The notes under the pieces are model-generated. The model was not told where the DNA came from and made no database searches. It worked only from the letters and a program-made list of their open reading frames with translations. Both the position numbers and the translations under genes were made by a program. From Lactobacillales bacterium (GTDB lineage Bacteria; Bacillota; Bacilli; Lactobacillales; Streptococcaceae), in assembly GCA_031261705.1 (NCBI GenBank), contig JAISJD010000030.1, positions 1 to 64,000 of the forward strand: a DNA stretch of 64,000 nt, read 5' to 3'. Positions 52,858-56,002 of the stretch are shown here, piece after piece; the first letter of the stretch is position 1; every line of letters begins with the position of its first letter.

Positions 52858-52886
52858 TTGACAACGAATGTTTTTTTTGTTAGATT
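52858..52886 (+). promoter_or_regulatory. Promoter of the M-box transcript
   Basis: TTGACA (52858-52863), 17 bp and TAGATT (52881-52886). Confidence 0.7.
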
Positions 52887-52904
52887 GTTAATGAAAATAA
52901 AATA

Positions 52905-53075
52905 CGATTTGTTAGGTGAGGCTCCTATGCAAACATAGGCTACTGCCCAAAAATGTCGAGAGACGCCAATGGGTAGAACAGGAATTGTCGAATACAAGGC
53001 TCTTCTTAAGGTAGCTAAGATATGTTTGTCTTTACGTTGCATAGTGCCAAAACTCAACGATTAGGTCAACTTCTC
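52905..53075 (+). promoter_or_regulatory. M-box (ykoK) Mg2+ riboswitch
   Basis: GTTAGGTGAGGCTCCTATG (52911-52929), CTACTGCCCAAAAATGTCG, GACGCCAATGGGTAGAACAG and ATAGTGCCAAAACTCAACGA reproduce the conserved blocks of the M-box in order. The aptamer folds when Mg2+ is high. The 3' strand CAAAACTCA (about 53047-53056) is complementary to TGAGTTTTG (53118-53126) in the terminator loop. This offers a clear switch: antiterminator without Mg2+, terminator with it. Confidence 0.93.
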
Positions 53076-53105
53076 TTTTTTGTCTTGTTTACGATGAATT
53101 TTAGT

Positions 53106-53145
53106 GCGGTCTTTCGCTGAGTTTTGAGCGAAAGATCGCTTTTTT
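53106..53145 (+). terminator. Riboswitch-controlled terminator
   Basis: GCGGTCTTTCGCT (53106-53118) pairs with AGCGAAAGATCGC (53127-53139, one G-T pair) and TTTTTT follows. It lies between the M-box and the small ORF, so both downstream ORFs depend on it. Confidence 0.88.
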
Positions 53146-53195
53146 GCGCCTTGAAATCAGTTTATTTTACTTACTCATAAGGGAGATGAATACAA

Positions 53196-53282
53196 ATGGA
53201 CGACAGTAGTTCGCATAGGTGGGGCTTTTGGAAACGAATGAAGAGGAAAGGTAGCCAATTATTTTTGTCTATTTGTATTTAA
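53196..53282 (+). CDS. 28-residue leader ORF between M-box and mgtA
   Basis: ATG 53196 follows AAGGGAG by 10 bases and opens a frame of 28 codons (MDDSSSHRWGFWKRMKRKG, then a hydrophobic end, stop TAA 53280-53282). The peptide is acidic at the start, then aromatic and strongly basic, with a short hydrophobic tail. I recognise no family. It is placed between a Mg2+ riboswitch terminator and mgtA. Seven bases after its stop begins TTCTCTCC, which can pair with the mgtA ribosome-binding region. It could be a leader peptide whose translation opens mgtA, or a small regulator of MgtA. It may also be non-coding. Confidence 0.5.
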   Translation: MDDSSSHRWGFWKRMKRKGSQLFLSICI

Positions 53283-53289
53283 CTTCCAG

Positions 53290-53338
53290 TTCTCTCCACA
53301 AGCCCGTGTAAAAGGAATGTAGATTTTTTTGGAGAGAA
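53290..53338 (+). promoter_or_regulatory. Possible SD-sequestering stem before mgtA
   Basis: TTCTCTCC (53290-53297) is the exact complement of GGAGAGAA (53331-53338), which runs into the mgtA ribosome site GAGAAGGAG. The 8-bp helix with a 33-nt loop would hide that site. A ribosome stopped at 53280-53282 would cover the left arm. Confidence 0.5.
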
Positions 53339-53347
53339 GGAGAAAAA

Positions 53348-56002
53348 GTGGAAAAAACATTTAAAAACAATCAAAAAATCAACTATGGTTTATTTGCCAA
53401 GAAAACGGTGGAAAATATCTTTGATAAATTTCAACTTTCAGCAAAAGGCTTGTCAGAGGAGCAGGTGCTAATCTCAAGAGAGAAGCATGGGGATAATAAA
53501 ATTTCTTACGGAAAGAAAACACCTTTTTTGGTGGAGGTTTTAAAAGCATATATTACTCCATTTACCTTGGTACTTATTGGTCTAGGAATGACGTCTTTTA
53601 TTACAGATGTTGTGATTGCCGCACCACAAGAACGTGATTTTTTCGGTAGTGGCATTATATTTTCAATGGTTCTTATCAGTGGGACGATGACTTTGATTCA
53701 GTCGGTAAGATCGAACCAAGCTGCTGAAAAATTAAAATCATTGGTAAAAGTAACTGCCAATGTGAAACGAAATAACCAATACGAAGAAATTCCAATGGAG
53801 GAGATTGTCTGTGGGGATCAGGTGAAATTATCCGCAGGGGACATGATTCCCGCCGATATTCGATTAATTACAACGAAGGATTTATTTATTTCTCAATCCG
53901 CTTTAACTGGCGAAAGCTATCCGGTAGAAAAACGCGCCGATGAGCGAATCACTCAGCAGGATTCTGACACGAGTTATGAAAATCTTGTATTTATGGGGAG
54001 TAACGTGGTTAGTGGAAGTGCTGAGGGGTTAGTCATTGCGACGGGAAATCGAACCCTTTTTGGCGATGTGGCTAAAACCTTGTCGACAAAACCAATTCCA
54101 ACGAGCTTTGAGTTAGGGATTCGGAAAACCTCTTTTTTATTCATCAAATTCATGTCGTTAATGGCACCGACCGTGATTGTCATTAACGGGTTGACAAAAG
54201 GCGATTGGTTAGAGGCTCTTTTATTTGGTTTATCCGTAGCAGTTGGGCTGACTCCTGAAATGCTGCCAATGATTGTTACGACAAACCTAGTCAAAGGTGC
54301 AACTGCTATGGCAAAAAAAGGGACAATCATTAAGAATTTGAACTCGATTCAAAATTTTGGTGCTATTGATGTGTTATGCACCGATAAAACAGGAACGTTG
54401 ACACAGGATAAAATTATTTTAGAGTATCACTTAGATTGTGATGGAAAAGAAGATAGTCGTGTGTTGCGACATGCGTATCTTAATAGCTGTTATCAAACAG
54501 GGTTGAAGAATTTATTAGATGTCGCAATTATTGAAGCTGCTGAGGAAAAGTTGGCAACAGAAACCATTCAATACAAAAAAGTTGATGAAATTCCGTTTGA
54601 TTTTGAACGTCGTCGCATGAGTGTCGTGGTAGAGGATAATCATGGGAAAACGCAAATGATTACCAAAGGCGCAATTGAAGAAATGTTAAATATCTCTAGC
54701 TTTGTTGATTTCAAAGGAAAAGTCACAAAACTTACAGATGAAGTCAGACGTGAGGTATTGGAAAAAGTCGAGGAATTAAACGCAAATGGTTTGCGTGTAC
54801 TCGGTGTGGCACAAAAAACTAATCCAAGTGTGGTGGGCGAGTTTTCTATCTCGGATGAGTCTGATATGGTACTCATCGGGTATCTAGCTTTCTTAGATCC
54901 ACCAAAAGAAACAACGAAACAGGCACTAGAGGCGTTAAAAATGCACGGCGTATGTGTCAAGGTACTGACTGGAGATAATGCGTTAGTGACTCAATCGGTC
55001 TGCAAACAGGTTGGATTAGGGGCTGAAAAGCTAGTAAATGGGGAAGAAATCGAGCAACTTACAGATGAAAAACTCAGTCAGCTAGTGGAAGAACATGATG
55101 TTTTCGTCAAATTGAACCCGCAACAAAAACAACGAATTACTTGGGCACTAAGAGAAAACGGACATACTGTGGGTTTTCTGGGAGATGGAATTAATGATGC
55201 GCCTGCAATGAAAACCGCAGATGTAGGGATTTCAGTCGATACTGCTGTTGACATTGCCAAAGAATCGGCAGATGTGATTTTGCTTGAGAAAGACTTAACG
55301 ATTTTAGAACGAGGAATTATTTCGGGAAGAGAAACCTTCGGAAATATTATGAAATATATTAAATCGACTGCAAGCTCGAATTTTGGCAATATGTTTTCGG
55401 TATTAGTCGCTAGTATGTTTTTACCGTTTTTACCTATGTTGCCCTTACAAATTCTCTTTCTAAATCTGATTTATGACATTTCCTGTGTGTCGGTTCCATG
55501 GGATCATATGGATAAGGAGTATTTGGAGGAACCAAAAAGCTGGACGGCTTCAGGTATTGGGAAATTCATGGTGTGGCTTGGCCCAACAAGCTCAATCTTT
55601 GATATTACCACTTATCTATTGATGTATTTTGTGATTTGTCCAGCAGTTGTCGGTGGAAATTTCCATACGCTAAACGCAGAGCAACAGGTGGCATTTATTG
55701 CAATCTTTCATGCCGGCTGGTTTGTTGAATCCTTATGGTCACAAACATTGGTATTACACGCATTGCGCACACCGAAAATTCCGTTTATCCAAAGTCGTGG
55801 TTCCTTTATCATGACTTCTATCACGACATTGGGGATTGCCGTGGGGACGCTCTTACCCTTTACAGCTTTCGGTCAAAATTTAGGTTTAGCGACACTGCCA
55901 AGCAGCTACTGGTTGTGGTTAGTGGCAACGGTTTTAGCTTATCTATTATTGGTGACCGTTGTTAAACGTTTCTATGTTACACGGTATCAAGAACTTTTAT
56001 AA
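53348..56002 (+). CDS. mgtA: P-type Mg2+ importing ATPase MgtA
   Basis: 884-residue P3B-type ATPase. LTGES marks the actuator, DKTGTLT the phosphorylated Asp, GDGINDAPA the hinge. VGLTPEMLPMIVT in helix 4 and NLIYDISCVSVPWD in helix 6 are signatures of the Mg2+ importers MgtA/MgtB. The N-terminus is cytosolic and basic. The start is GTG 53348 behind GAGAAGGAG. Regulation by the M-box upstream agrees with a role in Mg2+ uptake at low Mg2+. Confidence 0.96.
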   Translation: MEKTFKNNQKINYGLFAKKTVENIFDKFQLSAKGLSEEQVLISREKHGDNKISYGKKTPFLVEVLKAYITPFTLVLIGLGMTSFITDVVIAAPQERDFFGSGIIFSMVLISGTMTLIQSVRSNQAAEKLKSLVKVTANVKRNNQYEEIPMEEIVCGDQVKLSAGDMIPADIRLITTKDLFISQSALTGESYPVEKRADERITQQDSDTSYENLVFMGSNVVSGSAEGLVIATGNRTLFGDVAKTLSTKPIPTSFELGIRKTSFLFIKFMSLMAPTVIVINGLTKGDWLEALLFGLSVAVGLTPEMLPMIVTTNLVKGATAMAKKGTIIKNLNSIQNFGAIDVLCTDKTGTLTQDKIILEYHLDCDGKEDSRVLRHAYLNSCYQTGLKNLLDVAIIEAAEEKLATETIQYKKVDEIPFDFERRRMSVVVEDNHGKTQMITKGAIEEMLNISSFVDFKGKVTKLTDEVRREVLEKVEELNANGLRVLGVAQKTNPSVVGEFSISDESDMVLIGYLAFLDPPKETTKQALEALKMHGVCVKVLTGDNALVTQSVCKQVGLGAEKLVNGEEIEQLTDEKLSQLVEEHDVFVKLNPQQKQRITWALRENGHTVGFLGDGINDAPAMKTADVGISVDTAVDIAKESADVILLEKDLTILERGIISGRETFGNIMKYIKSTASSNFGNMFSVLVASMFLPFLPMLPLQILFLNLIYDISCVSVPWDHMDKEYLEEPKSWTASGIGKFMVWLGPTSSIFDITTYLLMYFVICPAVVGGNFHTLNAEQQVAFIAIFHAGWFVESLWSQTLVLHALRTPKIPFIQSRGSFIMTSITTLGIAVGTLLPFTAFGQNLGLATLPSSYWLWLVATVLAYLLLVTVVKRFYVTRYQELL

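Follow-up and report, generated by a model that had tools for sequence, protein, structure and literature searches.

Two short leader open reading frames (ORFs) of Salmonella are the closest described counterparts of the element reported here, which lies before the Mg2+ P-type ATPase gene mgtA in a 64,000-nucleotide (nt) stretch of a Lactobacillales genome (Streptococcaceae; contig JAISJD010000030.1, positions 1 to 64,000; hereafter the window). The first, mgtQ, is located between mgtC and mgtB in the mgtCBRU operon; replacement of its Asp2/Glu5 by Ala increases mgtQ translation and lowers mgtB, mutation of its start codon also lowers mgtB, and helix mutants act as alternative structures (PMC8092293). 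In the second, mgtL of the Salmonella/Escherichia coli mgtA gene, the EPDP motif of MgtL destabilises ribosomes at low Mg2+, which turns mgtA on (PMC11282234). The nearest Gram-positive work on an M-box riboswitch and an upstream ORF (uORF) that we found in the open-access literature concerns Mycobacterium tuberculosis pe20, where the M-box is followed by small ORFs and the Shine-Dalgarno (SD) site of the first ORF, together with an anti-SD, competes with the second SD (PMC12810186). No earlier description of a leader of the present kind in Gram-positives was found in the open-access literature.

In the window, mgtA is preceded by an M-box and its terminator and then by a 28-codon ORF with its own SD site (Table 1). 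A first-pass annotation of the sequence had recognised all of these, and they were confirmed, the aptamer scoring well above the 44-bit gathering score of RF00380 and adjoining its expression platform, the terminator. We consider it likely that the leader exerts a two-tier control in response to Mg2+, the M-box and terminator being followed by a translated attenuator with the ribosome as sensor. The annotation had also proposed a translational check behind the M-box, built like the Salmonella leader ORFs, and the comparisons below support it.

Three features of MgtL/MgtQ-type leaders are found at this locus, namely a short ORF with an SD site before an MgtA/MgtB ATPase gene, conserved acidic (or acidic/Pro) first codons and, computationally, mutually exclusive RNA structures leading from the ORF to the output site. 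As in mgtQ, the ORF stands right before the ATPase gene, codon 2 is acidic, and the alternative helices, one of which holds the ATPase ribosome site, would give a translational output. Whereas mgtQ is 8 codons long, with a nested 1:2, 2:3, 3:4 layout in an operon under PhoP, leaders of the present class have 12-50 codons, their first helix (P1) closes on the SD and start of the ORF itself, P1 interleaves with a second helix (P2), and control is under the M-box. With mgtL the likeness lies in the acidic/Pro-rich N-terminus (EPDP in mgtL); the output of mgtL is Rho-dependent termination, whereas here the visible output is access to the SD in Lactobacillales, and in Bacillales it is apparently an intrinsic terminator. 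The pe20 leader also has an M-box followed by small ORFs, but its M-box acts via translation and Rho, its conserved uORF2 is the regulated product, and it has neither an acidic-start sensor nor MgtA directly downstream (PMC12810186). As to the M-box itself, a direct Mg2+ sensor, the leader-ORF element is a separate entity downstream of it. From the sequence we infer an attenuator that would work like MgtQ/MgtL, in a Gram-positive and behind an M-box. The helix-arm sequences are unrelated between clades, and convergence with Salmonella mgtQ is possible.

The leader ORF keeps its acidic start

The mgtA loci whose leaders we read came from named genomes, from the class and from some 400 genomes of the order. 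One ATG ORF per leader was chosen solely by SD strength, which gave 115 distinct N-termini, mostly from Lactobacillales. At least two acidic residues at positions 2-6 were present in 63% of them, compared to 4.8% in dinucleotide-shuffled sequences and 8% on the reverse strand, acidic residues standing at position 2 in 62% and at position 3 in 60%; the mean SD energy was -8.8 kcal/mol versus -4.4. Occurrence of the leader ORF clearly exceeds chance, and the ORF is kept in relatives, as the first-pass proposal implied. Acidic starts include MDDS, MEDS, MDES and IDDHPEP, and the acidic pair at codons 2-3 is encoded by 11 different codon pairs among the 56 non-redundant leaders that have it. Leaders without a pair at this place are often acidic/Pro-rich (MQIDDHPEPH, MPNDDHPSQ, METQCNNSSDPDRP, MPEPDSKQ), and Bacilli outside the Lactobacillales show starts such as MDDSSSSR, MEDGHSRR, MEGSPSSQ and MDSSPSNP. 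At the same position, L122, L125, L128, L133, L134 and L135 carry an 8-codon ORF of MVKRCI type with a strong SD and no acidic residue, which reflects either a different signal or a different true start.

The rest of the peptide behaves differently. Each of the three frames is used for the conserved 3' arm among the 46 distinct leaders carrying the enterococcal element (19, 14 and 13 leaders), and the arm then encodes LLSICF, YCLFVF or IIYLF by frame. Judging from this comparison, conservation is confined to the RNA and to the acidic start, four to six residues from the N-terminus, and the 3' half shows none at the protein level. A conserved middle and C-terminus was rejected on the same three-frame reading; the aromatic and basic middle, which the first-pass annotation had singled out, is not the conserved part.

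It is very improbable that the ORF yields a functional small protein acting on MgtA or elsewhere: it is well formed, with a strong SD and a conserved start, but conservation ends after those few residues, the leader peptide has no Pfam match, and a separate small membrane ORF beside mgtA in relatives is a better candidate. In many relatives the leader ORF and mgtA are separated by such an extra ORF or by an in-frame extension of mgtA (MKTLGNIILYLMIGIGLWRIFFGEKERR). The extra ORF of Enterococcus, Vagococcus and relatives encodes a one-helix protein of 28-42 amino acids (aa) (...LWxIFFGKK...) and overlaps or fuses in frame with the mgtA start (L033 2396-2500, L100, L102, L109, L115, L116, L120; degraded in the window). 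No Pfam family matched it above cut-off; it is perhaps a KdpF- or MgtR-like partner of MgtA.

Helices P1 and P2 covary, helix P3 does not

The segment 53150-53360 of the window folds at -57.3 kcal/mol (z -3.9), beating 200 of 200 shuffles, and its main feature is a stem, some 29 bp long, between the SD/start of the ORF (53181-53211) and the ORF 3' end (53257-53287). For 62 of 78 leaders this pairing of the SD/start arm with the distal part of the ORF, P1, has z <= -2, and so it has for 25 of the 39 that lack the enterococcal sequence, where the arm sequences are unrelated; the window has a double change of its own in P1, from A-U to U-A. Helix P2 joins the ORF interior to the tract past the stop. 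For 16 of the 18 leaders of the MDDSSS group the true P2 partner scored better than the median swapped one, and for 9 it was best of all, with a median shuffle z of -3.4 in this group; P2 reaches z <= -2 in 43 of the 78 leaders overall. Compensatory exchanges in P2 were seen in L102 (GGGUUCUUU/AAAGAACCC), L097 (GGGCCUAUG/CAUAGGCCC), L095 (GGACCGAUG/CGUUGGUCC) and L041 (AGAGAC/GUCUCU). In a four-strand alignment of P1 and P2 over 25 leaders, whose strands were excised and anchored by hand with the second P2 strand positioned by homology, 95.8% of cells are paired, and nine pairs and 43 cells are changed on both sides. None of 500 shuffles reaches the observed value, and sliding the partner lowers pairing to 42-51%; the outer pairs of P2 are less regular, 88% of P2 cells being paired. 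At the level of sequence, the comparison shows P1 and P2 to be conserved helices with compensatory changes.

The strong covariation of P1 and P2, taken with the unconserved 3' half of the peptide, could also be read as RNA structure only, a P1/P2 pseudoknot that is possibly Mg2+-dependent and in which the ORF is incidental. We regard this as improbable, since acidic codons 2-3 and a strong SD persist where nucleotides and helix sequences are unrelated.

The first-pass annotation had instead drawn attention to a complementarity beginning seven bases past the stop of the leader ORF and had named covariation of its two strands as a check. The 8-nt complement is exact, TTCTCTCC (53290-53297) facing GGAGAGAA (53331-53338), but the latter touches only the 5' side of AAGGAG, the best mgtA ribosome site. 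This helix, P3, gave z -3.3 in one test and z -1.3 with a longer target. Covariation between the two strands was not found: swap and shuffle tests rejected P3 as a covarying helix, and in its conserved pairing the tract faces the ORF interior (P2) and not the ribosome site of mgtA. P3 is strong in certain lineages (L030, L103, L107, L152); in L103 the ORF interior is similar to the mgtA start region (AGGAAATTATGA and AGAGGAAATCATTATGAC), and TTCATAATTTCCTCA pairs with either of them. It is unusually good in the window because GGAGAGAA matches the FFGEK codons of the small membrane ORF, of which the window retains a mere remnant. In most leaders P2 and P3 draw on overlapping strands, and sharing a strand makes these two helices mutually exclusive.

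Position of the ribosome and access to the mgtA SD

The 78 leaders were folded with a ribosome footprint placed at successive positions of the ORF. In the window, the mgtA SD is unpaired at 0.22 without a ribosome, at 0.66 with a ribosome at the start and 0.64 at codon 4, again at 0.22 from codon 6 to the middle, and at 0.46 at the stop. Over all leaders, a ribosome at the start or at the stop opens the mgtA SD and one in mid-ORF does not. Folding by itself does not choose between early pausing and termination in this model; early pausing is preferred because of the conserved acidic start, P2 and the Salmonella precedent.

According to this proposal, ribosomes in ample Mg2+ would traverse the leader ORF and cover the P2 strand, so that P2 could not hold the tract and P3 would reduce mgtA initiation. 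If the leader ORF were untranslated, P1 would close and prevent P2. At low Mg2+, ribosomes would pause or drop off at the acidic codons, leaving the start region occupied and the ORF interior free; P2 would then form, P3 would be broken and mgtA would be translated. The ORF, P1, P2 and the P2/P3 strand overlap come from comparison, and the direction of the switch and its Mg2+ dependence are what we infer from them.

In the first-pass annotation it was the ribosome finishing the ORF that freed mgtA: by covering the pyrimidine tract it would break the SD-blocking helix. On such a reading, efficient ORF translation would be the on state, through unmasking or re-initiation. The stop does lie near the tract, about 20-75 nt ahead of the next start in many leaders, and in 31 of the 78 leaders the SD gains more than 0.1 in accessibility from a terminating ribosome, so that partial freeing of the site by termination stands in the folding. 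We nevertheless find completion unlikely as the signal. The stop shifts between clades because all three frames are in use across the conserved 3' arm, the acidic start is left unexplained, and the pump would be boosted when translation is unimpaired. Early hesitation or drop-off is more in keeping with the anatomy, the physiology and the Salmonella precedent.

Several observations weigh against the control as we propose it. A terminating ribosome likewise exposes the mgtA SD (0.46 in the window, a significant effect over all leaders), and some leaders have no acidic ORF (MVKRCIIS in L133 and L125, for example). P3 lacks covariation and is modest overall (z <= -2 in 16 of 65 leaders), and in the MDDSSS group the pairing of the tract with the next SD is at chance level (median z -0.5). 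Conservation of P1 is in part mere sequence identity, and P1 is missing in some leaders (very short ORFs, L053, L059). In the window P2 is interrupted and unexceptional (z -1.3 and -0.7 in two tests). Finally, P1 and P2 would jointly make a pseudoknot, and their mutual exclusion is assumed.

The element accompanies mgtA in Bacilli

A near-identical element (GGAGATGRAAACAAATGGAYGACAGT...CTATTGTCTATTTGTTTYTAG) is present in Enterococcus, Vagococcus, Isobaculum and others. The first-pass annotation had tied it to an M-box setting; in several enterococci it is directly before mgtA with the M-box about 1.3 kb upstream, mgtC and an acetyltransferase-like gene intervening. L003, for instance, has its M-box at 3026-3195, its leader ORF at 4488 and, separating them, the mgtC-like gene and the acetyltransferase-like ORF; the M-box and leader ORF of L033 are at 819-988 and 2271. 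No M-box was found within the 2.3 kb examined upstream in L059, and the acidic ORF was not seen at M-box genes other than this mgtA type (few cases with a recognised gene). On these grounds we assign the element to mgtA and not to the M-box. No Rfam family matched it above gathering score, either in the window or in 20 related loci examined at their leader ORFs, and a search of viral contigs found no such element.

In leaders of Bacillales type, ORF and mgtA are separated by an intrinsic terminator, and the ORF interior is complementary to the 5' strand of the terminator. This antiterminator pairing, visible by eye and weak versus shuffles (z -0.3 to -2.4), is no more than suggested. The third module there looks like a terminator in place of the SD block.

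Other loci showed further arrangements. In a second set of mgtA-like loci (L136-L141), an acidic ORF (MPEDSS...KRNEEHDP) runs across the start of the ATPase gene (-58 to +32), an overlap that suggests direct translational coupling. The streptococcal leaders L162 and L166 share a repeat-like insert, roughly 100 nt long, that follows the leader ORF and precedes mgtA. The genome of L002 has a second M-box (G000:C10:48384-48554) with no obvious same-strand gene in the next 1.5 kb, possibly an orphan. In the window, two DHA2-type major facilitator superfamily efflux genes lie on either side of the mgtA region (51465-52826 and 56714-58141), and a SAM-III (SMK box) riboswitch is found at 59539-59629 (73 bits).

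Table 1. Features of the mgtA leader region in the window (leader L067)
Feature	Position	Strand	Evidence or remark
Promoter-like site TTGACA-17-TAGATT	52858..52886	+	consensus match only
M-box (ykoK-type) Mg2+ riboswitch aptamer, RF00380	52901..53072	+	covariance model, 157.6 bits, E 3.7e-36
Intrinsic terminator of M-box, 13-bp stem and T run	53106..53145	+	stem 53106-53139, then TTTTTT
SD1, leader-ORF SD site AGGGAG	53180..53185	+	SD energy -8.5 kcal/mol
Leader ORF, ATG start, 28 codons/28 aa, MDDSSSHRWGFWKRMKRKGSQLFLSICI	53196..53282	+	conserved upstream of mgtA
Acidic codons 2-3 (Asp-Asp), proposed ribosome-destabilising signal	53199..53204	+	position-specific conservation; 11 codon pairs in relatives
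Helix P1 5' arm, 17 nt including start codon; extension 53181-53185 over SD1	53187..53203	+	
Helix P1 3' arm, end of leader ORF; extension 53283-53287	53265..53281	+	
Helix P2 5' strand GGGCUU-U-UGGA, leader ORF interior, codons 9-13	53222..53232	+	
Helix P2 3' strand UCCA-C-AAGCCC, past leader-ORF stop	53295..53305	+	
Helix P3 5' strand UUCUCUCCA, anti-SD; 53295-53298 common to P2	53290..53298	+	without covariation in relatives
Helix P3 3' strand UGGAGAGAA	53330..53338	+	
SD2, mgtA SD site AAGGAG	53337..53342	+	sequence, SD energy
mgtA, magnesium-translocating P-type ATPase, 884 aa, GTG start	53348..56002	+	TIGR01524, 1131.8 bits versus cut-off 610.75

Implications

With a slight preference over the contrary, we take the acidic leader ORFs across Bacilli to form a class that reads Mg2+ via ribosome stability and drives MgtA through exchangeable outputs, SD blocking in Lactobacillales and intrinsic terminators in Bacillales, placed behind an M-box so that free and ribosome-bound Mg2+ would be checked separately. 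Such an arrangement would account for the second, translated segment in many M-box mgtA leaders, and it offers many natural variants for testing the effect of early acidic residues on ribosomes. Mg2+ sensing via destabilisation of ribosomes at acidic codons has been worked out in enterobacteria; a Gram-positive counterpart would make it a general principle and, if it is truly conserved, the mechanism would be either very old or invented repeatedly.
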